Shown in pieces: positions 15,332 to 59,874 of a DNA stretch of 64,000 bases. Source of the stretch: Filimonas lacunae. GTDB taxonomy: Bacteria > Bacteroidota > Bacteroidia > Chitinophagales > Chitinophagaceae. Position 1 is the stretch's first letter. Each line of letters opens with the position of its first letter. The notes beneath the pieces are model-generated. The model was not told where the DNA came from. It saw nothing but the letters and a program-made list of their open reading frames with translations, and ran no database searches. The stretch covers positions 2,356,001 through 2,420,000 of the forward strand of contig NZ_AP017422.1 of assembly GCF_002355595.1 (NCBI RefSeq). The letters run 5' to 3'. The position numbers and the translations under genes were made by a program.

Positions 15332-16735
15332 ATGCATAAATTTTCGCATTTTCACTTATGTGAACACCCTCTGATTGTCAGTGATGAAATCCCGGGTGTC
15401 CAATCCCGCCGTTTGCTGGACCTGCAAACGAAGCTGGAAGGCAGTATCGTTTCTTATCCACGAAATATTCCTATAGCTATTAAAAGGGCTAAAGGTGCCA
15501 TTATAGAAGATGTAGATGGCAACTATTATCTTGATTTTTTTGCTGGTGCCGGTGTAGTTAACCTCGGACATTGTAATGAAGAAGTATTGGCCTATGCTGA
15601 AAAGCAACAGAAAGAGCTGATTCATGCACTGGATTTTCCTACTGAAAATAAACTGAATGCTATTCAGAAGATACTGGCGCATTTGCCGGTGACGTTGCGC
15701 GATGAGTATAAAGTTAGTTTTGTAGGGCCCACCGGATCGGATGCTATTGAAGCGGCTATTAAGCTGGCTAAAATTAAAACACGCCGCGATACAGTTATTG
15801 CTTTTTCAGGCGGCTATCATGGCATGAGCGCTACTGCACTGGCATTAACCTCCGATACGGGATTCAGGCAGGGAATATCTTCCCTGGTGCCCAATATTCA
15901 TTTTGTTCCTTATCCCTACTGTTACCGCTGTGTGTTTAAGAAAAATCCGGATAACTGTGCTTTGGATTGCCTGGGCTATTTGAAAATGGTGCTGGAAGAC
16001 GGGCATTCAGGTATTCCTAAACCAGCTGCTATTATCCTGGAGCCTGTACAGGGCGAAGGGGGTAACATAAAACCGAAAGCGGGTTACCTGGAAGCTTTAG
16101 TGGAACTGGCGCATAAGCATGATGTGCTGGTGATTTTTGACGAAGTACAGTCGGGCTTTTTCCGTTCCGGAGAGTTTTTATCTTTTATGCATGGTAAGGC
16201 CATCCCGGATATCATTACCGTATCCAAAGGCCTGGGGGGCGTGGGGTTTCCGGTAGCCGGCATTATTTATAAACGTGACATCGAAGCCTGGGGGCCTGCT
16301 GCGCATATTGGCACTTTCCGGGGCAACCAGGTAAGCCTGGCAGCAGCGAACGGCGCTTTTGACTTTGTAGATAAATACGATTTGAACGAGCATACACAGG
16401 CGATGAGCAAACTGTTATTTGCAGGGCTTGATAAACTCAAAGCTGTTTCCCCGCTTATTGGGGAGGTGCGTGGAGAGGGACTTATGATAGGAATTGAATT
16501 TGTGAAGAGCAGGGAGAGCCGTGAGCCGGATGCCAGATCGGTAAAAGAGTTTAGAAAGAACTGTTTACATAGAGGGTTAATATTTGAAGTGGGAGGCCAT
16601 TTCAATAATGTGGTAAGATTGGTGCCTCCTTTAATTATCACGCCTGCTATCATTGCTGCTGCTTTAGAAATTATGGAAGATTCGCTGGCGGCTATGAAAA
16701 ACAACTTAACCGAAATTTTACTTCATCATCAATAA
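15332..16735 (+). CDS. Class III aminotransferase, diaminobutyrate--2-oxoglutarate type
   Basis: The 467-residue PLP enzyme has the fold-type I aminotransferase layout: GPTGSDAIEAAIKLA, GGYHGMSATALALT, IFDEVQSGFFRSGEF and the PLP lysine K299 in VSKGLGG. Length and the N-terminal segment (YPRNIPIAIKRAKGA, DFFAGAGVVNLGH) fit the 2,4-diaminobutyrate aminotransferase group (Dat/EctB type). This group makes L-Dab from aspartate semialdehyde and glutamate. It starts 30 bp after NRPS1 and 11 bp before the SbnA-like gene, so it most likely supplies Dab for the NRPS A domains with code DIWExTADD. Ornithine-type specificity cannot be excluded from sequence alone. Confidence 0.85.
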   Translation: MHKFSHFHLCEHPLIVSDEIPGVQSRRLLDLQTKLEGSIVSYPRNIPIAIKRAKGAIIEDVDGNYYLDFFAGAGVVNLGHCNEEVLAYAEKQQKELIHALDFPTENKLNAIQKILAHLPVTLRDEYKVSFVGPTGSDAIEAAIKLAKIKTRRDTVIAFSGGYHGMSATALALTSDTGFRQGISSLVPNIHFVPYPYCYRCVFKKNPDNCALDCLGYLKMVLEDGHSGIPKPAAIILEPVQGEGGNIKPKAGYLEALVELAHKHDVLVIFDEVQSGFFRSGEFLSFMHGKAIPDIITVSKGLGGVGFPVAGIIYKRDIEAWGPAAHIGTFRGNQVSLAAANGAFDFVDKYDLNEHTQAMSKLLFAGLDKLKAVSPLIGEVRGEGLMIGIEFVKSRESREPDARSVKEFRKNCLHRGLIFEVGGHFNNVVRLVPPLIITPAIIAAALEIMEDSLAAMKNNLTEILLHHQ

Positions 16736-16746
16736 TATAGATTCCT

Positions 16747-17757
16747 ATGTTAGACGCGTTATTACACCTGGAGCCTTTGATTGGGAATACTCCCGTTAAA
16801 TCTCTCCGCTTCGATTGCCGCCTTTCTATTAAACTGGAGCATGTTAACTATAGCGGAAGTATTAAAGACAGGGCTGCTTACAGCATTCTGCTGAATGCTA
16901 TCAAAAGAAATGAAATTAATAAAGATACCTTGATTGTAGAGTCCAGTTCCGGCAATTTTGCCATTGCGCTGGCCATGATTTGCAAGCAGATAGGGCTGAA
17001 ATTTATCCCGGTTATTGATCCGAATATTAATCAGGAAAATGAAACAGTGCTTCGCATGCTGGTAGAGGAAGTGATAAAGGTGGATAAGCCGGATCATACC
17101 AATGGTTACCTGCTTACCCGTATTGAAGCGGTGCAGGAATTGCGCAGGAAGCATCCTAACAGTTTCTGGACTAATCAGTATGAAAATCCCGATAACTACC
17201 TGGGTTATTATAATACCATGGGCCTTGAAATATGTAATCAATTTTCGCAGCTGGATTATGTGTTTATAGCAGTAAGCTCCTGTGGCACCATCACGGGTAT
17301 TTCTAAAAGACTGAAAGAGCATTTCCCCCATATTAAAGTGGTAGCGGTAGATGTGGAAGGGTCGTTACTGTTTTCTGAAAAACCACGTAAACGATTTGTA
17401 TCGGGCATTGGAGCCAGTAAAAAATCGGCATTGGTATCTATTGCCAGTATTGATGATGTGGTGCATGTAACGCATGGGGAAATTATTATAGGATGCCGGG
17501 CTTTGTTGTCTGAACAAGGCATATTAAGTGGTGCGTCTACCGGCGCAGTATACCAGGCTATAAAAAAATATGCTTTACTGCATGGGATAGAGCCGGAAGC
17601 GCAGGTATTATTTTTCTCTACCGATAAAGGTAATTCGTATCTGAGCAATGTATATAACGAAGCCTGGGTGCAAAATGTACTTTATCATACCACAGAACAA
17701 GTGCCGGTAGTGCTTTCCGAAACACCACTGGTACTAAACGGAACCTCTTTATCCTAA
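16747..17757 (+). CDS. sbnA: SbnA-like PLP enzyme for L-2,3-diaminopropionate synthesis
   Basis: 336-residue fold-type II PLP protein of the cysteine-synthase family. The N-terminal LIGNTPV motif, the PLP lysine K40 in SGSIKDRAAY, the phosphate/PLP loop ESSSGNFAIALA and SCGTITGISKRL all agree with SbnA. In staphyloferrin B synthesis that enzyme joins O-phospho-L-serine and L-glutamate to give N-(1-amino-1-carboxy-2-ethyl)-glutamate. The next gene encodes the SbnB partner, as in other Dap-forming operons. This pairing separates it from housekeeping cysteine synthase. It should feed free L-Dap to the NRPS. Confidence 0.88.
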   Translation: MLDALLHLEPLIGNTPVKSLRFDCRLSIKLEHVNYSGSIKDRAAYSILLNAIKRNEINKDTLIVESSSGNFAIALAMICKQIGLKFIPVIDPNINQENETVLRMLVEEVIKVDKPDHTNGYLLTRIEAVQELRRKHPNSFWTNQYENPDNYLGYYNTMGLEICNQFSQLDYVFIAVSSCGTITGISKRLKEHFPHIKVVAVDVEGSLLFSEKPRKRFVSGIGASKKSALVSIASIDDVVHVTHGEIIIGCRALLSEQGILSGASTGAVYQAIKKYALLHGIEPEAQVLFFSTDKGNSYLSNVYNEAWVQNVLYHTTEQVPVVLSETPLVLNGTSLS

Positions 17758-17769
17758 TTATGTATTTAT

Positions 17770-18738
17770 ATGCTTTATCTGAACACAAGTGATATTCAAC
17801 AATTGCCGTTGCAGTGGTCTGAAGTGGTAAGCTGTATTGAAAGTGCGGTGCAAACGATGCCTGCTACTGATTACGCCCAGCCTGTGAAGCCTTATCTGCG
17901 GTATAATAATTTAACCAACCGCATTATTGCCATGCCTGCTTATGTAGGTGGAAATATCGGCTTTTCTGGAATTAAATGGATAGCCAGTTTTCCGGATAAT
18001 ACCAGGCAGGGTATTCCCAGGGCGCATTCGGTAACTGTATTGAATGAAGCGGATACAGGTATTCCCTGTTGCATTATCAATAGTGCGGTTACCAGTGGCA
18101 TACGCACTGCAGGTGTATCTGCTTTTGTATTGTCTAAATTTCTGACATACAGACAGCGCAGCGGTTTAATTGCAGGTATTACGGGTTTTGGACCTATTGG
18201 GCAATTGCATTTGAAAATGCTGCTTTCGTTATTTGGTAACAACATCAGTGCGGTGCGCATTTTTGATCTGAAGCCTATAGAGGAAGCATTGCTGAAAGAG
18301 TGGCCTGATGGCAAGGTTACCCAGGTATCTTCCTGGGAAGAAGCATATATGGATGCCGATGTTTTTATTACCTGTACGGTTTCCAGCAACCGGTATATTA
18401 ATAAGCCGCCTAAAAAAGGATCGGTTCATCTGAACGTGTCATTGCGCGATTATGAGCCGGATTTTGTGCACCACGCAGATATGATTATTGTAGATGACTG
18501 GGAGGAAGTGTGCCGGGAAAACACGGATATAGAAAAAATGCACCAGGATAAACAATTGCAGAAACAGGATACGGTAAACCTGGGTGCATTGCTCAATAAT
18601 TCAGTATGGAGTAGGCTTTCCGATGATGCAGTGGTGATGTTTAACCCTATGGGTATGGCCATATTTGATGTGGCTGTGGCTTCTTATTATTATCGCCGGT
18701 CTATAGCAGAAAGTGCGGGAACTCTGCTTAATTATTAG
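17770..18738 (+). CDS. sbnB: SbnB-like dehydrogenase completing L-Dap synthesis
   Basis: 322-residue protein of the ornithine cyclodeaminase/mu-crystallin family. It carries the substrate-binding region (KWIASFPDNTRQGIPRAHS), TSGIRTAGVSAFVL, and a Rossmann segment GITGFGPIGQLHLKML for NAD. SbnB oxidatively hydrolyses the SbnA product into L-2,3-diaminopropionate, 2-oxoglutarate and NADH. It lies 12 bp after the SbnA-like gene and 26 bp before NRPS2. Together with SbnA it argues that at least one NRPS module uses Dap. Confidence 0.88.
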   Translation: MLYLNTSDIQQLPLQWSEVVSCIESAVQTMPATDYAQPVKPYLRYNNLTNRIIAMPAYVGGNIGFSGIKWIASFPDNTRQGIPRAHSVTVLNEADTGIPCCIINSAVTSGIRTAGVSAFVLSKFLTYRQRSGLIAGITGFGPIGQLHLKMLLSLFGNNISAVRIFDLKPIEEALLKEWPDGKVTQVSSWEEAYMDADVFITCTVSSNRYINKPPKKGSVHLNVSLRDYEPDFVHHADMIIVDDWEEVCRENTDIEKMHQDKQLQKQDTVNLGALLNNSVWSRLSDDAVVMFNPMGMAIFDVAVASYYYRRSIAESAGTLLNY

Positions 18739-51168: not shown

Positions 51169-52842
51169 GTGGATTTATTAAAAATTCTGCAAAAAAGATC
51201 CAGGTTGTTTTATTTGTCCCTTTTGTTTCTGGGGATGATCAATGCGTTATGGTCTGCAGCACTGTTGTTGTTTATTAATGGAAAAATTGCTGGTGAGCAT
51301 GCTTCTTTTCTGAATAATGACGACTGGCGTATTTATGTGGTACTGATAGTGATATCTTTTTTTACAGCCCGGTATTTTCAGAAATATATGATCAGTCTTA
51401 CTTATGACCTTGGAAATGAATTGAATTTATCTGTGTTTCAAAGGTTACGTTTTTCTAATTATGAGGCCTATCTGAAACTGGGAGAGGAAAGAGTAAGGAC
51501 TGTGATGTCTGATGTAGTTATTCTTCAACGGTTTCCGCAGGTGTTTATAGAATCGTTTAATGCAGGGGTAATGGTGCTGATTGGCCTGGGGTATCTTTTT
51601 TGGATAAATATGCTGAATGCATTTATAGTATCGGTGGTGTTGCTATTGCTGGGAGCTATTTATTACCTGCGTAATATGGCTATTCAAAAAGATCTTTCTG
51701 CTGCACGTGACCTGGCAAATGTGTATCAGCAAAATGTGAACGATTTTTTGCGCGGATTCAAGGAAGTGAAGATGAGCGCAGACAGGAGCGATACTATTTA
51801 TGATCAATTTCTGGTACCCAATCGCAGTAAAGTAAAGGCGCTTACAGTAAAGAGCATTACCCGCCTGATGGGTAATGAATTGATTGGAACTTACTGCTGG
51901 TATGTGATGATAGGTGTGGTGCTTTTTCTGATACCTGTTATGCAAAAGAATGCGAATGACCACGGCGGCAGTTTTATTGTAACGCTTCTGTTTTTAATGG
52001 GCCCTGTGGCTGTTGTTATTACTCAGATTAAGGAGTTTACTTTAATGAGGATAGCTATGAACCGGATACAAGAGTTTAACACGCTGTTACATTCTGCCAG
52101 TTCTGGGCAGCTGAATCATGGTAGCGAGATGCCTGTGGGCGAAGCATTTGAAAGCATTCGTTTTGAAAATGTGGAGTATGAATATTTTGATGCCAAAAGA
52201 AAAGAAACATTTCGCCTGCAGCCGCTGAATCTGGAAATCAGGAAAGGAGATAGTTTGTTTGTTACGGGGGGCAATGGTAGTGGTAAAAGTACTTTTATTC
52301 AGCTGTTGTCGGGTTTGTACACTCCTATGTCTGGTACTATATACTGGAATGATATACCTGTGACTCCGGAGCATTATGCCTGGTATCGAAACCAGTTGTC
52401 CTGCATTTTTACGGATTGCTATTTGCCTGGTGAAAATTACGATGGCTTTCAGCTTTCCAGGAATAATGAGCAGCTGATGTTGTTGATTGAAAAAATGCAA
52501 CTTTCAGACGTGATTGCTATTGATGAGCAGCATAACCGTATTTCCAACCAGCTATCGAAAGGGCAACAAAAGCGCCTGGCGCTTATTTATCTTCTGTTGG
52601 AGAATAAAGAAGTGATCGTACTGGACGAATGGGCGGCTGAGCAGGATCCTGTATTCAGAGGAGTTTTCTATAAAGAGATTATACCTGCCCTGAAGCGGGA
52701 TGGCAAAACCGTGATTGCGGTTACTCATGACGATCAGTATTTCCACTGTGCAGAAAAGGTAGTACGTTTTGATTTTGGGAAAATTTCGGATATCCATATC
52801 AATGAATCTTTACTAACCAAAGAGGCTTTTCATTCATTATAA
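51169..52842 (+). CDS. Cyclic-peptide-type ABC exporter (TMD-NBD half transporter)
   Basis: 557 residues from a GTG start 11 bp after NRPS3. The N-terminal half has about six hydrophobic segments (first near 15-33). The C-terminal half is an ATPase with Walker A GGNGSGKST (near 367-375), an ABC signature in the form LSKGQQKRLAL, Walker B VIVLDEW and the His switch in AVTHDD. The architecture and the LDEWAAEQDP segment match the SyrD/PvdE/YojI cyclic peptide export family, which works as a homodimer in the inner membrane. Its position directly after the terminating NRPS gene makes export of the lipopeptide the natural assignment. Confidence 0.9.
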   Translation: MDLLKILQKRSRLFYLSLLFLGMINALWSAALLLFINGKIAGEHASFLNNDDWRIYVVLIVISFFTARYFQKYMISLTYDLGNELNLSVFQRLRFSNYEAYLKLGEERVRTVMSDVVILQRFPQVFIESFNAGVMVLIGLGYLFWINMLNAFIVSVVLLLLGAIYYLRNMAIQKDLSAARDLANVYQQNVNDFLRGFKEVKMSADRSDTIYDQFLVPNRSKVKALTVKSITRLMGNELIGTYCWYVMIGVVLFLIPVMQKNANDHGGSFIVTLLFLMGPVAVVITQIKEFTLMRIAMNRIQEFNTLLHSASSGQLNHGSEMPVGEAFESIRFENVEYEYFDAKRKETFRLQPLNLEIRKGDSLFVTGGNGSGKSTFIQLLSGLYTPMSGTIYWNDIPVTPEHYAWYRNQLSCIFTDCYLPGENYDGFQLSRNNEQLMLLIEKMQLSDVIAIDEQHNRISNQLSKGQQKRLALIYLLLENKEVIVLDEWAAEQDPVFRGVFYKEIIPALKRDGKTVIAVTHDDQYFHCAEKVVRFDFGKISDIHINESLLTKEAFHSL

Positions 52843-52866: not shown

Positions 52867-55290
52867 ATGAAGACTTTTGTATTATTGATTTTTGCTTTAC
52901 TGTCTGTGGCGCCAGGGAAGGGGCAGGCATTGCAAACGGGATCTATTACGGGAACAGTTGCCGGAAGTGGCAAAGGGGTGTTTGGCGCTACGGTTGCATT
53001 GCGAAGGAATGCGGATAAAACAACCGTGAAATTTGCAGTTACGGATAGTGTGGGTGCATTTGAATTTACAGGTATTGCGTATGGCTGGTATGTGGTATCT
53101 GTTACGGCTGTGGGATTTGAGAGGCGTGTGTCTGACTCTATAGGCTTACAGGCACCGGCCATTACCATAGCTGCTATTACACTTGAGGCAGAGGCTACGA
53201 ATCTGGAGCAGGTGACCGTGAGTACGGTGAAGCCGCTTATTGAACAGAAGATTGATCGCACAATTGTGAATGTGGCCAATTCTGTTACCATGTCGGGCAA
53301 TAATGGCGCGGAAGTGCTTGCTCAATTACCTGGGGTAGCTATCAGCGCCGGTGGTAAAATTACTGTAAAAGGTAAGGAGGGGGCTGTAGTGCTTATTAAT
53401 GGCAGGTTAACTTATTTAACGGGTGGCGATCTGTCTAATTACCTGAAGGGCATGCAGGCCAGCCAGATTGAAAAAATTGAGATTATCAGTAATCCTTCTG
53501 TAAAGTATGATGCAGCAGGAAGCGGGGTGATTAATATTATTACTAAAACGGAAACCAGGAGAGGCTGGAATGCATCGCTGTCAACTGCTTACAGGCAGGG
53601 CGTGTATGCCAGTACAACCAATAGTCTGGCGGTGAATTACCGGACAGAGAAAGTGAATGCGGGTTTAACAATGGGATATCAGTTGTTAAACGGATTCCAG
53701 GATTACTATGTATTACGCAATCAGCGGGACGGAGCAGATAATGCTATTCAAAGCATTTTTGATCAGCATAGTTACCAGAAAACTACGAATAAGAGTGCTA
53801 ATGCACGACTGAATATAGATTACTACATGAACGCCAAAACCGTATTAGGGTTAGGTGTTTCCTACTACGATAATCCTACTCATTCTACCGGTAATAATAA
53901 TACAGTATTGAAACTGCCTGATGGTACGGTGCAGCAGCGTGTACTTGCTTCCACTTCTGCCAATGGTAGCTGGCGTAATCCTGCTTACAATGTTAACCTG
54001 AAGCACGCATTAAATGCAAAAGGGCAGAATATTGAGTTTGATGGTAATTACATCAGATATACCACTAACGATCAACAGTCGTTTGATAATTATTTTTATC
54101 AGCAGTTAGAGGAAAAACCTGATACAGCTGAACTGTTCAGGGCAAGGTTGCCGCGTACTATTAAGATTGCAACAGGGAAAGTAGATTATGTGTTGCCATT
54201 GGGCGCGCACGACAAATTGGAAGCGGGTGTTAAGGGGAGTGATGTGCGTACAGATAATAATGCCATGTATTTTAATGAAGTGGCTTCGCATCTTGTGGCG
54301 GACAGTGCTGCCAGTAACCACTTTTTGTATAAAGAGCGCGTGTTGGCTTCTTACCTCAATTATAAAAAGCAATTGGGTAAAATGGGTGTGCAGGCCGGTG
54401 TGCGTGTGGAAAATACCGCTTCTAAAGGCTCCCTGCTAACTACAGGTGAAGTAAACAAGAGAAATTATACACAGTGGTTTCCTTCTGTAGGGCTGGAATA
54501 TAAGATGAATGAATCTCATACATTGGGTGTTAGTTACAGCAGACGTATTGAACGGCCGGAGTATCAAAGTTTAAATCCGTTCAGATATTATGTAGATAAA
54601 TACACTTTTGAAGAGGGGAATTCTTTTCTGCTGCCGCAAACTGCTGATAATATAGAGCTTAATTATCTGCTGATGGGCGGGCTTTTGTCTGCCACAGCTT
54701 CTTATAGTCGTACGAATAATCCTATTCAAAGCGTAGTGCTTCAAAATCCTGAGAAAAACGAAACTTATTTAAAGCCTCAAAACCTGGATAAAAGGGAGGT
54801 GATGGGGATTCAGCTGAGCTCCGTAGTTCCCTTATCGGAAAAGCTTACTTCTACCTGGAATATTTTACTGAATAATACCCGTATTACCGGTGTTATAAAC
54901 GAGCTGCCTTATACTCTGGAGCAGTTCCAGTTTTATGGCTCAGTGCTTAACCAATGGAAGTTTGCCGAAGGGTGGTCGGCTGAATTATATGGATTGTATA
55001 GTTCTTCCAGTATAGAAGACGCCTTTGTTCGCAGGCCATATGGTACTATCAGCGCGGGTGTTTCTAAAACGATTCTGAATAAAAAAGGGTCGGTTCGTTT
55101 AAGTGGGGCGGATGTTTTTTACTGGAACAAACTGGTGGCTTATAGCCGCTATCAGCACGTAGATGCTTTTCTGGACAATCGTTTTCAAACCAGGACTATT
55201 CGTCTGGCTTTTACTTACCGTATCAATAGTCCCGCCAAAGTCGCTGCTAAAACCTTGCCGGAAGAAACTGACCGGGTGCGGATGAAGTAA
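52867..55290 (+). CDS. TonB-dependent receptor family outer-membrane beta-barrel
   Basis: 807 residues. A signal peptide is followed by a CarboxypepD_reg-like beta-sandwich (GSITGTVAGSGKGVFGATVAL ... YVVSVTAVGFERR). Next comes a plug-like domain (GNNGAEVLAQLPGV, KEGAVVLINGR, QIEKIEIISNP, GSGVINIITK), and then a long barrel ending in FTYRINSP. This is the Bacteroidota outer-membrane beta-barrel group related to TonB-dependent receptors. It lies 24 bp after the exporter, so it may take part in crossing the outer membrane, in re-uptake, or in self-protection. These roles are inferred from position only. Confidence 0.85.
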   Translation: MKTFVLLIFALLSVAPGKGQALQTGSITGTVAGSGKGVFGATVALRRNADKTTVKFAVTDSVGAFEFTGIAYGWYVVSVTAVGFERRVSDSIGLQAPAITIAAITLEAEATNLEQVTVSTVKPLIEQKIDRTIVNVANSVTMSGNNGAEVLAQLPGVAISAGGKITVKGKEGAVVLINGRLTYLTGGDLSNYLKGMQASQIEKIEIISNPSVKYDAAGSGVINIITKTETRRGWNASLSTAYRQGVYASTTNSLAVNYRTEKVNAGLTMGYQLLNGFQDYYVLRNQRDGADNAIQSIFDQHSYQKTTNKSANARLNIDYYMNAKTVLGLGVSYYDNPTHSTGNNNTVLKLPDGTVQQRVLASTSANGSWRNPAYNVNLKHALNAKGQNIEFDGNYIRYTTNDQQSFDNYFYQQLEEKPDTAELFRARLPRTIKIATGKVDYVLPLGAHDKLEAGVKGSDVRTDNNAMYFNEVASHLVADSAASNHFLYKERVLASYLNYKKQLGKMGVQAGVRVENTASKGSLLTTGEVNKRNYTQWFPSVGLEYKMNESHTLGVSYSRRIERPEYQSLNPFRYYVDKYTFEEGNSFLLPQTADNIELNYLLMGGLLSATASYSRTNNPIQSVVLQNPEKNETYLKPQNLDKREVMGIQLSSVVPLSEKLTSTWNILLNNTRITGVINELPYTLEQFQFYGSVLNQWKFAEGWSAELYGLYSSSSIEDAFVRRPYGTISAGVSKTILNKKGSVRLSGADVFYWNKLVAYSRYQHVDAFLDNRFQTRTIRLAFTYRINSPAKVAAKTLPEETDRVRMK

Positions 55291-55324: not shown

Positions 55325-55819
55325 ATGCGTATTAAACAAATGATTTCTGCAGGTTTATTTTCTGTGTTTTTATTGAGCGCTCAATTTTCTTTTGCTCAGT
55401 TAAAGGGTGTAGTAACGGATGATGCGAATGTGCTTACTCCTGCTACTGAAACAACTTTGCTTCAGCAATTGCAGAAGGAAGAGAAGGAGTCGGGTAACAA
55501 GATTTATGTATATACTGTAAAGGTGTATAATCAGAAGGATATAGACAATCTGCTTGCAGGGGCTGCCAAAACGGTTGTGGCTTCTAAAAGTGGCAAGAAG
55601 AGCGGTGCTATACTGCTGGTAGTATCTCCTGAAAGCAGGAAGATTAAGATTATAGCCAGTGAAGGATTGGAAGACAGGCTGAATAATGAAATGTGTACGC
55701 AGCTGATTAAATCGGAGATAGTGCCTCCTGTTAAAAAAGGAGATTATGATACGGGTGTTAAGGCAGGTGTGGCAGCTTTGCAAAAAGCCCTGAAGGGTGC
55801 ATATGTAAGCAGGGATTAA
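55325..55819 (+). CDS. Small secreted TPM-domain protein
   Basis: 164 residues with a signal peptide (LFSVFLLSAQFSFAQ) followed by one TPM (TLP18.3/Psb32/MOLO-1) domain. Recognisable parts are VVTDDANVLTPATETTLLQQL, KIYVYTVKVYN, SGAILLVVSPESRKIKI and GLEDRLNN. Unlike many TPM proteins it has no C-terminal transmembrane anchor or Gly-rich tail. Family members bind or hydrolyse phosphate esters or assist membrane-protein repair. The gene is 34 bp after the barrel gene and 18 bp before the prenyl-synthase-like gene, inside the NRPS operon. Its role there is unknown. Confidence 0.75.
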   Translation: MRIKQMISAGLFSVFLLSAQFSFAQLKGVVTDDANVLTPATETTLLQQLQKEEKESGNKIYVYTVKVYNQKDIDNLLAGAAKTVVASKSGKKSGAILLVVSPESRKIKIIASEGLEDRLNNEMCTQLIKSEIVPPVKKGDYDTGVKAGVAALQKALKGAYVSRD

Positions 55820-55837: not shown

Positions 55838-57778
55838 ATGATACAAACCTATAAAACATTAATAGAGTCGTTGTCGTTTGATGCGGCCACTGAACAGGAA
55901 CTGTTGAAAGAGCAGGTGTTGCAGGAGCATTATTTTTACCTGCACCTTGTGCTGTATTTGTCTCCGGCCTATCCTTCTGTGCCGGAGCCTGTTAAGAAAA
56001 AATTGGGAGCGGCGGTTTACTTGTATTTCAGGTTTGCACTTGCCTGTGATAAAATGATTGACCAGGAGAAAAGCACCAATTCTGGTATTCAGCAATTTTT
56101 TGTTCAGATTCGGTTGCTAGAGGCGGCTGTCAGAGAGTTGTCTGCATTGTTTCCATCAGGACATGTGTTCTGGCAATACTTTGAAAAAAGCAGGACAGAA
56201 TATATCCGGACCATGCTGGTTGAAAAGAAACTGGCTGGTGAAGGAGGATATATTACTGTGGAGCAATTTGAAAAGCTGGCGGCCGGAAAATCTGCTTTGT
56301 GTTATGCGGTTCCCATTGCTATCAGCCTGTTACAGGATACGGCAGAGATGGCTACCGATTCGCTGCAGCGATGCCTGGAATATTTGCACATAGGTTTTCA
56401 GTATATGGATGACATAGATGATTTTTTGAAAGACGTAAAAAGTGGTCAGCCTAACATTGCCGACAGTCTTCTGAGGAAGAAACTGGAAGAGGAGGGGGTA
56501 TCGGGAACGCTGGCAGAGGAAGAGCGTTATAAGTTGATGTTTCTTTCGGGAGTAGCTACCGCATGCCTGCAAAATGCCATTACGTGGTTTGAGAAAAGCA
56601 GAGCGGAAATAGCTTCTTTTTCATTGGCAAAACTGGATGGTTTTATTACAGGCTTTGTGAAAAAATGCCTGGACCAGCTAAGGGCTATTGAGTTGTTGAT
56701 TGAAAAAGCCAGGGTTAAGGCCAGCTGTAGCAAAGAGCAGGTAGCTGGTGGCGCCTATGCCGGCGCAGAGGCTATTAGAAGCGCTATTGAAAAGGGCAGG
56801 GCTTTCCTGGCTGCTGCTATGCAGGGAGATGGCAGTTGGACTGACTTTTTAACCAATGCGGGTCTGGGGCGCAACTGGATAACGGCATATGTGGCTATGA
56901 ACCTGGCTGAAGCAGGTGAGGTTGCTGTTATTCCTGATAAGGCGGCAGAACTATTAAACAGTTCGCATTTCAAAGGGGCTTTTAATGACCAGATTAAGGA
57001 AGATGGCGATTCTCTTAATTTTCTGGTTGGTTACCTGAATAGTAGTAAAGGAACTGTAAGCAATAATTTATGGCAGGACTGGCGTTCGTTTTGCAATGAT
57101 GCAGGTGGCTGGCGTACTTATCAGGATGCCGATGTATTGAAGCGGATATTGGGCCTGGAAGATGTGGCTGATGTCAGCGGATGGTTATCGGCTAAATCGT
57201 GTGTAAGTGCTGCAGCGTTATATGTATTAGCTAAGCAGGATGGCGACAGTGTTTTATATCATCGTACCGCAGGCTTTCTTATGAATGAACAAATGCCGGA
57301 AGGTTACTGGAAATCGTACTGGTGGTCGAGCCCGGTTTATGCTACCGCTTTTGCTTTACAGGCTTTGTCTGTTTCGCGGACTTATCAACAGGCTTGTGCC
57401 AAAGCTGCGGACTGGTTAAAGTCGCAACAGGCTGCCAATGGAGCATGGAGCAGTGATATAGTAGTGGAAGAAAGTCCATTGTATACTGCTATGGCTATGA
57501 AGGCCCTGCTTTGTTATAATACTTCCCTTTACGATAACTCTATCCGGCAGGCGTGTAAATGGTTGCTGGATAATCAAACTACTGATGGCAGTTGGCAGAG
57601 TTCTTTTGCCTTGTTGGTGCCTGCACCGGATTTTCATGAATCTGAAGCGGTGCAGCAATGGAGCCGGGGTTCGTTTGGTGTAAATATTATTGTAGAGGAT
57701 CATTATCGGGTGTTTTCCACTGCTACGATTGTGAATGCGCTGGAATGCTTACTGGAAAAGAAAATACAGTTAAACTGA
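55838..57778 (+). CDS. Fusion of isoprenyl-diphosphate-synthase-like domain and terpene-cyclase/prenyltransferase barrel
   Basis: 646 residues, no signal peptide. Residues about 20-295 look like an all-helical isoprenyl-diphosphate-synthase fold. FQYMDDIDDF (DDxxD at D191-D195), followed by SGQPNIADSLL, matches the second aspartate-rich motif; the first motif is reduced to DKMID (D71-D75). Residues about 310-640 contain squalene-cyclase-type QW repeats: QGDGSW (about 329), QMPEGYW (485), QQAANGAW (530) and NQTTDGSW (580). I see no DxDD class II catalytic motif in the barrel. The single retained DDxxD recalls ComQ-like peptide prenyltransferases; the barrel recalls terpene cyclases and protein prenyltransferase beta subunits. 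Possible roles: prenylation of the peptide encoded next, tailoring of the lipopeptide, or terpene formation. Last large gene of the operon. Confidence 0.75.
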   Translation: MIQTYKTLIESLSFDAATEQELLKEQVLQEHYFYLHLVLYLSPAYPSVPEPVKKKLGAAVYLYFRFALACDKMIDQEKSTNSGIQQFFVQIRLLEAAVRELSALFPSGHVFWQYFEKSRTEYIRTMLVEKKLAGEGGYITVEQFEKLAAGKSALCYAVPIAISLLQDTAEMATDSLQRCLEYLHIGFQYMDDIDDFLKDVKSGQPNIADSLLRKKLEEEGVSGTLAEEERYKLMFLSGVATACLQNAITWFEKSRAEIASFSLAKLDGFITGFVKKCLDQLRAIELLIEKARVKASCSKEQVAGGAYAGAEAIRSAIEKGRAFLAAAMQGDGSWTDFLTNAGLGRNWITAYVAMNLAEAGEVAVIPDKAAELLNSSHFKGAFNDQIKEDGDSLNFLVGYLNSSKGTVSNNLWQDWRSFCNDAGGWRTYQDADVLKRILGLEDVADVSGWLSAKSCVSAAALYVLAKQDGDSVLYHRTAGFLMNEQMPEGYWKSYWWSSPVYATAFALQALSVSRTYQQACAKAADWLKSQQAANGAWSSDIVVEESPLYTAMAMKALLCYNTSLYDNSIRQACKWLLDNQTTDGSWQSSFALLVPAPDFHESEAVQQWSRGSFGVNIIVEDHYRVFSTATIVNALECLLEKKIQLN

Positions 57779-57892
57779 TCATTACATCATAAAGAGGCTA
57801 GCAATTCTGGTTTGAGGCAATGGGCAGGTTCAGGCCGGAATTAAAATCAATTGCCCTTATTAATTTATTCTTTAACAAAAAAATGAAAACAC

Positions 57893-58015
57893 ATGATGAC
57901 AGCTTCAACCATTAAAGCAGAACAGACTTTAAGCCTGACTACACTGGCTGAATTTTTTGACATTTCTGACCTGCAAAAGAAAGCAGAGTTCTACACATGG
58001 GATTATGATTTTTAG
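57893..58015 (+). CDS. 40-residue mini-gene, candidate Trp-modified peptide precursor
   Basis: Starting at the ATG at 57893 (a second ATG follows at once), the frame encodes 40 residues and stops at TAG 58013-58015. The N-terminal part is leader-like (LSLTTLAEFFDISDL), then a charged KKAE, and the end is highly aromatic: FYTWDYDF. The only Trp is residue 36, five from the C-terminus. The gene lies 114 bp after the prenyl-synthase-like gene and is closed by a strong terminator 27 bp downstream, which argues that it is real. Another ATG at 57883 in a different frame has the better A-rich upstream context but gives only ten codons. I know no family for it. ComX-like precursor is a hypothesis; a regulatory leader peptide for the thioesterase is the main alternative. 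Confidence 0.6.
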   Translation: MMTASTIKAEQTLSLTTLAEFFDISDLQKKAEFYTWDYDF

Positions 58016-58042
58016 TTTCTGCTGTTTAATTCTCTGAATTGA

Positions 58043-58070
58043 GGGCTGGTTATTATGCCAGCCCTTTTTT
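58043..58070 (+). terminator. Rho-independent terminator of the NRPS operon / mini-gene
   Basis: GGGCTGG (58043-58049) and CCAGCCC (58058-58064) form a 7-bp GC-rich stem with an 8-nt loop, followed directly by six T. It lies between the mini-gene and the thioesterase gene. Some read-through, or a separate promoter, would be needed to express the thioesterase. Confidence 0.85.
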
Positions 58071-58081
58071 AAACAAAAGCT

Positions 58082-58792
58082 ATGATTAAACCACAATTAT
58101 TTTTATTGCATTTTGCCGGTGGCAACTGTTATTCTTACTTGCCTTTATCTGCGCTGCTGAAAGAGTTTGATGTAGTGTCTTTGGAATTGCCAGGCCGTGG
58201 GCAAAGACTGGATGAGCCTTTGCTAAAAGATTATGATCTGGCTGTACAGGATATATTCCATCAGATAACTTCAAAGCTTTCGGGTGCAAGGTTTATGCTG
58301 TATGGGCATAGTATGGGTGCCTACCTGGCTTTAAGTGTGTGTGCCATGCTCGAAGATGCAGGTAAATATCCTGCTTACCTGGTAGTGAGCGGTAATGCCG
58401 GGCCTGGACTGCGTGAAAAAAGAAATACTTATTTGCTGGAACATCGTTTGTTCTGGAAAGAAGTGCAGTCGTTAGGAGGCATAGCTGATGAATTGCTTGC
58501 GAGTATGGAATGGGTAGCATTATTTGAGCCTGTATTGAGGGCTGATTATGAAATTGTAGAAAGAGAGGATATGGATACTTCTACCCTGGTGCAAGCGCCT
58601 ATTTACGCACTGATGGGGGATAAGGAAGAGCAAGTTGAGGCTATTGGTAACTGGGGCAGGTATACTGCTTCGGCTTTTGAGTGGGTCATTCTGAAGGGAG
58701 ATCATTTTTTTATTTTTAGCCAGGCTGCTGCATTAACTAATGCTATTAAAAAATGTTATGCAACAGTAACCGTTACTGTAATTCCATCTTGA
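58082..58792 (+). CDS. Type II thioesterase of NRPS clusters
   Basis: 236-residue alpha/beta hydrolase of the GrsT/SrfA-D group. FAGGN near the N-terminus forms the oxyanion region, LELPGRGQR is typical, GHSMG holds the nucleophile S77, and GDHFF carries the catalytic His. Such enzymes remove wrongly primed or stalled acyl groups from carrier domains. It begins 12 bp after the operon terminator and its 3' end overlaps the convergent PPTase gene by 20 bp. Confidence 0.9.
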   Translation: MIKPQLFLLHFAGGNCYSYLPLSALLKEFDVVSLELPGRGQRLDEPLLKDYDLAVQDIFHQITSKLSGARFMLYGHSMGAYLALSVCAMLEDAGKYPAYLVVSGNAGPGLREKRNTYLLEHRLFWKEVQSLGGIADELLASMEWVALFEPVLRADYEIVEREDMDTSTLVQAPIYALMGDKEEQVEAIGNWGRYTASAFEWVILKGDHFFIFSQAAALTNAIKKCYATVTVTVIPS

Positions 58793-59414
58793 TAAACTCA
58801 ACGTGCGTGCATTCGAAGCTGTTGGCTATGTGTCCTATGTAGCCTGGGAAAAAGTGGATAGGCGCAAGATGCCAGTTGTTGTTATCAAAGCTAACTTTCG
58901 GATGGATGACTGATAGCTGGGATAAATGATCTGTTAAACCTCTGCCATCTGCTTTTAATACTGCTTCCTTTTTTGTCCAGTACTCATAGAATGTATGCAG
59001 GGGAGTGGCTGCCTGTTGAATTTGTTGCCATTCCTGTATGGTAAACTGATTTTTAAAGTCGTTAATATCCAAATCTTTGCATTGCTCTATGTCTACGCCA
59101 ACCGGACCTTGTTGGCCAACTGCACATATTACCAGGTTGCCGGAATGTGAGATGTTAAAAGGATAGAAGCCTTGAATGGTGGGTTTTTGGTATTTATTAT
59201 AGCTGATATTGTGTAAGGTGAAAGTGCCTGATGCAGCCTGTAGTGCCTGTAGCAACAGGTGTTTTCCTAATACATAAGCGTGTGCGCTTTCCCATTTTTT
59301 ATACCTGGTTGCCTGTTGCTGCATTTCTGGTGGAAGCGCCAGTTGCAAGGCTGTAAATTGATGGGAAGGTAAAGGTTGATAGAAGTAGCTATAATATATG
59401 GTGAAAGATGTCAT
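58773..59414 (-). CDS. Sfp-type 4'-phosphopantetheinyl transferase
   Basis: Starting at 59414 (MTSFTIYYS) gives 213 residues; the frame stays open to 59516, but the extra 34 residues look non-conserved. Sfp-type motifs are present: KYQKPTI with FNISHSGNLV, the Mg-binding GVDIEQ and WTKKEAVLKADGRGL. It transfers phosphopantetheine from CoA to the serine of carrier domains. The eleven elongating modules plus loading carrier here (13 carriers) need such an enzyme. Placement at the end of the cluster, convergent with the thioesterase, suggests it serves this pathway. Confidence 0.92.
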   Translation of the reverse strand: MTSFTIYYSYFYQPLPSHQFTALQLALPPEMQQQATRYKKWESAHAYVLGKHLLLQALQAASGTFTLHNISYNKYQKPTIQGFYPFNISHSGNLVICAVGQQGPVGVDIEQCKDLDINDFKNQFTIQEWQQIQQAATPLHTFYEYWTKKEAVLKADGRGLTDHLSQLSVIHPKVSFDNNNWHLAPIHFFPGYIGHIANSFECTHVEFIKMELQ

Positions 59415-59874
59415 CTTTTCAAAGGTTTGGAGTAAAGGTATTTTTGGTTTGAATATAAAAATTTTGTCTGTTGCAAGGTGTCTGAAGTTGTTGCTGAAAG
59501 CAGCAGGTGTTGCCATGTATTTTGGGGGGTATTGGTGACTGTTACCAGTGTGTCGGGATACTCATAAAAGTGCGGCCTTTTTCATCTTTAGCCCATATCC
59601 AGCCGTGTGTAAACAATAAGAGGAGGTTGGAGGAACAGAACCGGCGTTTGAGTGGTAAGATGAATGAATGTGAACAGGTTAGATGGAAAAGCAATAGTAT
59701 ATGTGGGGATTTGGGATGTTGCATGTTTTTTTTAGGCTGTTTTAGGTGTCTAATTTAAGTAATTACGGAGGTTTTTCTATTTTTACAGTAGCAAATGTAC
59801 CGGGTCAGAAAAAAAACTTAAACGATTCTTGGTTAATATGTTGGAGATCATTACTTTTGCCACCCTTACAACAA
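59415..59874. other. Intergenic region, nothing recognised
   Basis: 460 bp between the PPTase start and tRNA-Arg. It is AT-rich, with short open frames on both strands that show no family features. The PPTase promoter must lie in its left part, but I could not assign one. No repeat or RNA structure stood out. Confidence 0.5.

Follow-up and report, generated by a model that had tools for sequence, protein, structure and literature searches.

To our knowledge, few terpene-modified ribosomal peptides are known. The enzymes closest to the subject of this work are treated in a 2026 review (PMC13290415), which counts ComQ and PalQ, along with the P domain of ChrPC, among the Trp prenyltransferases resembling trans-isoprenyl diphosphate synthases (trans-IDSs), states that all characterised prenyltransferases of this type target Trp, and assigns to the first Asp motif of canonical trans-IDSs the holding of the allylic donor. 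For cyclised terpene-modified ribosomal peptides, the review names ChrPC and NctPC, with reference to Hubrich et al. 2024 (Chem 10:3224), a study likewise cited in PMC12715784. In ChrPC, the C domain helps in the cyclisation of the prenyl group, while NctPC carries a P domain of the ABBA fold fused to an MstE-like C domain and acts on Trp. As for ComQ, the PalQ paper (PMC10853753) reports that the first Asp-rich motif is kept and the second is missing. The locus described here lies in a stretch of 64,000 nt (G000:C1:2356001-2420000, hereafter the window) of the single-contig, 7.8-Mb genome of Filimonas lacunae. It consists of a gene for an enzyme that joins a predicted trans-IDS-like N-terminal domain (P) to a terpene cyclase-like C-terminal domain (C), and of an open reading frame (ORF) of 40 amino acids (aa) downstream of it. 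These two genes probably (about 70%) encode a bifunctional maturase of a ribosomally synthesised and post-translationally modified peptide (RiPP) and its precursor, with a terpene put on Trp36 and cyclised, and the core cleaved and exported. The sequence comparisons given below lend good support to a pairing of enzyme and precursor with Trp as the target.

The P and C domains of the enzyme

The N-terminal part of the enzyme is recognised weakly by sequence and, in the predicted model, clearly by fold as a trans-IDS. The Pfam family PF00348 matches it below the cut-off (E 0.0039), and a 12-row profile of enzymes (A3) matches 4lob with an E value of 6.6e-5 over profile positions 45-210. The AlphaFold2 (AF2) model, built from a two-sequence alignment (the window protein and that of the related locus L007), has a mean predicted local distance difference test (pLDDT) score of 47.7 overall, of about 66 over residues 1-290 and of less than 50 from residue 292 on. 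Compared by VIA, the modelled P domain matches 4jyx with a Z of 21.0 over 250 residues at 2.8 A, residues 1-280 being spanned, and the best 50 matches listed are all of the isoprenoid-synthase fold and nearly all trans-IDSs. With the same model, the one Foldseek match at or below an E value of 0.001 was to a hexaprenyl diphosphate synthase.

The enzyme departs from canonical trans-IDSs, which have two DDxxD motifs, in that DKMID lacks the second Asp. Among 12 aligned homologues, the invariant columns are D71, D75, W112, D191, D192, D195 and D199, which leaves the second Asp motif whole but only the outermost Asp residues of the first. Column 188 is Gln in 10 of the 12 enzymes and Cys in those of loci L008 and L023; the role of Gln at this position is treated in section 9 of PMC13290415.

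The C-terminal half is similar over its whole length (residues ~312-640, phmmer) to the monodomain class II terpene cyclases 6ij1 (E 1e-29), 8pak (2.1e-28), 8paj (8.2e-28) and MstE (1.3e-19), and PF13243 matches residues 417-588 with an E value of 1.3e-14, which bears out the squalene cyclase-like barrel proposed in the initial annotation of this DNA. Both marks of monodomain class II cyclases, barrel similarity throughout and a DxD[DST] motif, are therefore present. The motif is DGDS (residues 389-392), and since it aligns with DADS in 6ij1, 8pak and 8paj and with DADT in MstE, the central acid is retained; D389 and D391 are nearly invariant in the 12-enzyme alignment. The fold of this domain is assigned from sequence, because pLDDT is below 50 there with the two-sequence alignment.

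Relatives of the enzyme and their precursor peptides

Matches to the enzyme were found in 6 of 294 genomes of its own family (window enzyme alone, E <= 1e-10) and in 5 of 365 of its class (E <= 1e-25); at E <= 1e-20, 11 of 395 genomes of the phylum and 9 of 348 of the order have them, as do 4/79, 13/299 and 1/3 genomes of the families of G360, G347 and G305, respectively. Some genomes belong to more than one of these groups, and the own genome enters several of the counts. The two other genomes of the genus gave no match to the enzyme at E <= 1e-10. A contig collection yielded no relative with the window enzyme as query and one locus, L007, with the enzyme of locus L002. All the places found were taken with their flanks and, together with L007, make up 40 loci. 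By P and C profiles, 20 of these (the window included) have a fused P-C enzyme, 8 have P alone, and the other 12 have C and lack P.

Of the 20 P-C loci, 18 have a short co-oriented ORF that encodes the leader F-x-[VI]-E-E-L-E-x-R-x-E-[FML]. Excluding the window, the count is 17 of 19, the opposite of the general absence from homologues that the initial annotation had named as grounds for giving up the pair. The two loci without such a peptide are L049, whose enzyme is truncated, and L089, where the miss says little because the contig spans 4.4 kb. A Trp follows the leader in each of the 25 leader peptides from P-C loci (that of the window among them), within six residues in 23 and farther away in L008 (at 15) and L023 (at 19); among background ORFs, 342 of 3437 have a Trp in that place. 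P-only loci have a leader peptide in six of eight cases, three of these six with the Trp, and none of the 12 loci with C but no P has a leader peptide. The cut-off for these counts, 21, was set just below the window's own score of 21.2, the background maximum being 19.0. Most of the counted peptides are among the 24 leaders of the BLOSUM62-averaged profile used, so that their count is not out of sample. An out-of-sample test is provided by a position-specific scoring matrix (PSSM) derived from the first batch of loci with the window left out, by which 7 of the 8 P-C loci outside that batch score more than 20 bits, whereas the best of 2373 background ORFs reaches 9.2. Judged by these sequence comparisons, the recurrence of homologous enzymes with an adjacent Trp peptide is more than chance, in agreement with the initial proposal that the enzyme and the small ORF of the window act together in modifying a peptide, probably at its Trp.

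An M50-type protease is encoded within ~1.2 kb of the enzyme in 17 of the 20 P-C loci, as well as in 6 of 8 P-only loci and in none of the 12 with C without P. The two of these proteases that were scanned resemble the NCBIfam daptide and epipeptide RiPP proteases, below the cut-offs. Genes for radical SAM/SPASM proteins occur in 8/20 P-C loci and those for one kind of P450 in 2/20. The loci of the P-C relatives are RiPP clusters.

The precursors of some relatives deserve mention in their own right. In L027 (8319-9364), six tandem precursors with near-identical leaders and differing cores precede the enzyme gene, the Trp standing 2 or 3 residues past the leader. Three P-only loci with M50 proteases (L080:7696-7872, L082:7534-7701 and L031:627-830) encode leader peptides without Trp behind the leader, with cores beginning TFYFNYAQC, TFYYSSHDS and SCYCAINLC, respectively. 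Given that all characterised trans-IDS-like prenyltransferases target Trp according to PMC13290415, the enzymes of these three loci may use another acceptor. Searches of plasmids, in which neither query was covered to 80% at any one place of a record, added two Hymenobacter loci, L098:7004-9600 (NZ_CP053909) and L099:8902-11229 (NZ_CP040937), and a Deinococcus match, all three outside all the counts. Each Hymenobacter locus has a P-only enzyme 32 to 33% identical to the P domain of the window, then an M50-type protein and then a small coding sequence with Trp (RTEIW or RLETAW), all of them bearing the annotation hypothetical protein. The peptide of Hymenobacter DG01 scores 34.7 on the leader profile, and that of BRD128 scores 19.1, about the level of the highest-scoring background ORF.

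In the window peptide, the only Trp is residue 36, fifth from the end (YTWDYDF). A Trp near the C-terminus, which the initial annotation had emphasised, is thus found in the window, and it is not the rule of the family, where the Trp tracks the leader and the stretch behind the leader ranges from 7 to 57 residues; in the window, the Trp is near the end because the core is short. The leader was scored in three ways, in this order: by the log-odds PSSM, by a HMMER profile, and by the BLOSUM62-averaged profile accompanied by a shuffled pairwise test. By sequence, it is degenerate, weak by the first two and top by the third. On the BLOSUM62-averaged profile, a test that is out of sample for this peptide, it ranks first among 603 small window ORFs with its 21.2, a score reached by none of the 3437 background ORFs. 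Its best partner among 28 precursors is the peptide of L024, with EQTLSLTTLAEFFDISDLQKKAEFYTWD aligned to QNTQHTNLLLEQFQLEELEERTEFSAWD over 28 ungapped residues (score 52). None of 2000 shuffles did as well against this peptide, and 1 of 2000 did so when the best over all 28 precursors was taken. L024 also has the enzyme nearest in identity to that of the window (33 to 34%), and its peptide lies 37 nt downstream of the last piece of the enzyme, in the same enzyme-then-peptide layout. In a phylogenetic tree, the enzymes of the window, L024 and L049 form one clade with a support of 100/100. The 40-aa ORF is accordingly taken as a true, divergent precursor on the basis of these alignments.

The following course of events can be proposed for the pair. 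The leader part of the peptide (around FFDISDLQKKAEF) would be bound by the enzyme, and the P domain, relying on its complete second Asp motif and on what is left of the first (D71 and D75), would move an allylic diphosphate, probably C15 or C20, onto the indole of Trp36. In the C domain, the middle Asp of DGDS, D391, would protonate the attached polyene, leading to a polycyclic terpene, and the core YTWDYDF would be cut from the leader and exported, perhaps via the ABC transporter of the operon. This whole course, from the binding of the leader and the length of the donor to the choice of Trp, the ring closure, the cleavage and the export, is deduced from the domain content, the conserved motifs and the reported activity of ChrPC.

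Genomic setting and competing explanations

The features of the locus are collected in Table 1; its reading frames, the gap between them, both Asp motifs and the position of the Trp are all as initially annotated.

Table 1. Features of the locus, in window coordinates.
Feature	Position	Strand	Basis or remark
Non-ribosomal peptide synthetase (NRPS) genes, 3265, 3177 and 7608 aa	5504..51157	+	3 + 3 + 7 AMP-binding stretches
Aminotransferase, PALP and ornithine-cyclodeaminase-like genes	15332..18738, interspersed with the NRPS genes	+	
ABC transporter, cyclic-peptide-export type	51169..52842	+	TIGR01194 284.8 bits, just below the cut-off of 286.2 (NCBIfam)
TonB-dependent receptor-like outer-membrane protein	52867..55290	+	
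TPM-domain protein	55325..55819	+	ends 18 nt 5' of the enzyme gene
Fused prenyltransferase-cyclase (P-C) enzyme, 646 aa	55838..57778	+	ATG start; one contiguous frame; Pfam, homologues
P domain, residues 1-290, predicted trans-isoprenyl diphosphate synthase fold	55838..56707	+	AF2 model, Foldseek, VIA
Degraded first Asp motif, D71-K-M-I-D75	56048..56062	+	D71, D75 invariant in 12/12 aligned enzymes
Second Asp motif DDIDD, D191-D195	56408..56422	+	D191, D192, D195, D199 invariant in 12/12
C domain, residues 309-646, MstE-like barrel of the monodomain class II terpene cyclase type	56762..57775	+	sequence only
Acid motif, D389-G-D391-S392	57002..57013	+	aligned to DADS (6ij1, 8pak, 8paj) and DADT (MstE)
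Putative precursor peptide gene, 40 aa	57893..58015	+	ATG start; leader profile, family comparison
Leader motif FFDISDLQKKAEFY, residues 21-34	57953..57994	+	degenerate F-x-[VI]-E-E-L-E-x-R-x-E-[FML]
Trp36 codon, presumed prenylation site	57998..58000	+	Trp in 25/25 P-C-locus leader peptides
Intrinsic terminator-like hairpin and U-tract	58041..58071	+	-18.9 kcal/mol, z -4.75, 0/200 shuffles as stable
Stand-alone thioesterase	58082..58792	+	3' of the hairpin
4'-phosphopantetheinyl transferase	58773..59516	-	

The genes from 28331 to 57778 are all co-directional, with intergenic gaps of 11, 24, 34 and 18 nt, for which reason the enzyme is very probably part of the NRPS transcript. The 40-aa ORF begins 114 nt after the end of the enzyme ORF, and its stop codon lies 25 nt before the hairpin with its U-tract, so that it looks like the final gene before a terminator; a consensus terminator scan did not list the hairpin at 58041-58071. 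The thioesterase beyond it would be of type II, by inference. In the two other genomes of the genus, no match to the neighbouring ABC transporter was obtained at E <= 1e-60. The aminotransferase III, PALP and ornithine-cyclodeaminase-like genes interspersed with the NRPS genes at 15332-18738 suggest the supply of a diamino acid such as diaminopropionate.

The NRPS setting poses the question of whether the ribosomal and non-ribosomal products are linked. In an explanation that dispenses with a ribosomal product, the P-C enzyme was recruited by the NRPS pathway and prenylates and cyclises the non-ribosomal peptide (NRP) or a carrier-bound residue, the small ORF being a leftover of the ancestral RiPP system. 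The probable sharing of a transcript, the lack of the RiPP-typical M50 protease next door and the degenerate leader agree with such a recruitment. It is nevertheless unlikely, given that the small ORF is intact and leader-like, with its Trp at the family distance and the hairpin behind it, and that L024 has the same layout without any NRPS-sized gene on its 12-kb contig. The missing protease and the degenerate leader, together with the truncation of the related L049 enzyme, would also fit a decaying relic, that is, a RiPP pair whose protease is gone and whose leader is being lost. This is quite unlikely for a locus where the 646-aa frame is open, D71, D75, D191, D192, D195, D199 and DGDS are all kept, and the frame of the peptide is intact and followed by a terminator-like hairpin.

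Very unlikely is the production of a free terpene by condensation of the IDS type and subsequent class II cyclisation, with the small ORF present by chance: the predicted trans-IDS fold of the P domain and the resemblance of the C domain to MstE and to a prenylcyclase would suit it, but the first Asp motif, to which PMC13290415 assigns the holding of the donor, is broken, with the family keeping only D71 and D75 of it invariant, and the recurrence of the peptide in the other P-C loci would be unexpected. In a further extension, the core YTWDYDF with a cyclised terpene on its Trp would be joined to, or act with, the ~13-module NRP, as a ribosomal-terpenoid-non-ribosomal hybrid or a two-component agent from one transcript; this is improbable.

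A number of observations weigh against the preferred explanation, namely a maturase acting on Trp36 of its own precursor. The log-odds PSSM gave the window peptide 2.6 bits, a value equalled or bettered by 15 of 2373 background ORFs and ranking it 6th of 603 window ORFs. In a search of 6123 ORFs with the HMMER leader profile, it is absent from the matches at E <= 50, and the BLOSUM62-averaged profile that does single it out was the third scoring method tried. The Hymenobacter P-only peptides align poorly with it directly (scores of 31 and 22). The window, L024 and L049 have no M50 neighbour (the L024 contig ends 1.2 kb past the enzyme), and the only strong M50 homologue of the own genome (E 1.4e-55) lies ~103 kb upstream, beside a precursor-like ORF of its own. 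Within the clade of the window enzyme, that of L049 is truncated to 510 aa and has no precursor, and the tree flags all three members for letter make-up and L049 for a long branch. The AF2 model leaves the C domain below a pLDDT of 50, and the likeness to ChrPC is drawn from the description of that enzyme in the review. More generally, the evidence comes from sequence, a predicted structure and gene order, which makes the chemistry a predicted one.

Two further clusters were noted in the course of the searches. The first lies in the own genome, ~103 kb upstream of the enzyme (L096:8780-11423), where a leader-like LLEPRLEL ORF (25.5 on the leader profile), the M50 homologue and a lipid-A-acyltransferase-like gene stand in a row; it is a probable separate RiPP cluster, the product of which is perhaps lipidated. 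The second, L090:5068-14236, encodes, next to a P450, a protein of 675 aa whose C domain is MstE-like and whose N-terminal half is a different one and has no Pfam match. It lies in a lasso-peptide cluster, with a B2 protein above the NCBIfam cut-off and a lasso-cyclase-like protein below its own, and a terpenylated lasso peptide is a possible product.

Comparison with described systems

The leader, with a Trp mostly no more than six residues on, offers a simple joint search for enzyme and substrate in further genomes, and the precursor of the window, at 40 aa with a core of seven residues, would make a compact and handy substrate for Trp prenylation and ring closure. An NRPS operon setting or so short a core was not found for such enzymes in the literature searched, which took in a minority of subscription papers. 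Among the matches listed there for RiPP-NRPS hybrids, nothing was similar by title.

The ComQ/ComX pair of Bacillus, with which the locus had initially been likened, and the PalQ/PalX pair of Paenibacillus also involve enzymes of the isoprenoid synthase superfamily that prenylate the Trp of a small ribosomal peptide. ComQ and PalQ are not known to carry a cyclase domain, and in the comQXPA layout a ComP-type histidine kinase adjoins; no histidine kinase was found among the Pfam-scanned ORFs of the window, comprising the 40-aa ORF and those of at least 160 aa other than three antisense ORFs of 183-239 aa. PalX differs in its nitrile hydratase-type leader and C-terminal Trp. The likeness to ComQ holds for the chemistry, as an analogy, and fails for the motifs, the DKMID and DDIDD of the window enzyme being the reverse of what PMC10853753 gives for ComQ.

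With MstE and the other monodomain class II cyclases (6ij1, 8pak, 8paj and 6sbb), the C domain shares its whole length and the DxD[ST] motif. These cyclases are stand-alone proteins, with small meroterpenoid precursors as substrates.

The nearest counterparts are the fusions, for which the initial annotation knew of no described system and of which two acting on Trp are reported in PMC13290415. As described there, NctPC is likewise a prenyltransferase-cyclase fusion with a C domain of the MstE kind, its P domain being of another fold (ABBA) than that of the window. Closer still is ChrPC, which, by the same description, unites a trans-IDS-like P domain with a C domain of cyclase type in a single protein and targets an internal Trp of a ribosomal peptide. 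Maturases of the ChrPC kind are further marked by Trp prenylation from C10-C20 donors and by cyclisation, activities that would be expected of the window enzyme. The corresponding elements are found in the window: a P domain of predicted trans-IDS fold, a C domain with DxD in the same frame and an adjacent peptide with a core Trp, the leader being weak. Since the review reports both ChrPC and NctPC, the fusion architecture, reported in the 2024 work, was already known, and the window enzyme is a distant, divergent and oddly placed member, distinguished from ChrPC by its degenerate leader and, as its unusual traits, by its place at the end of an NRPS operon, its seven-residue core and its missing M50 neighbour.

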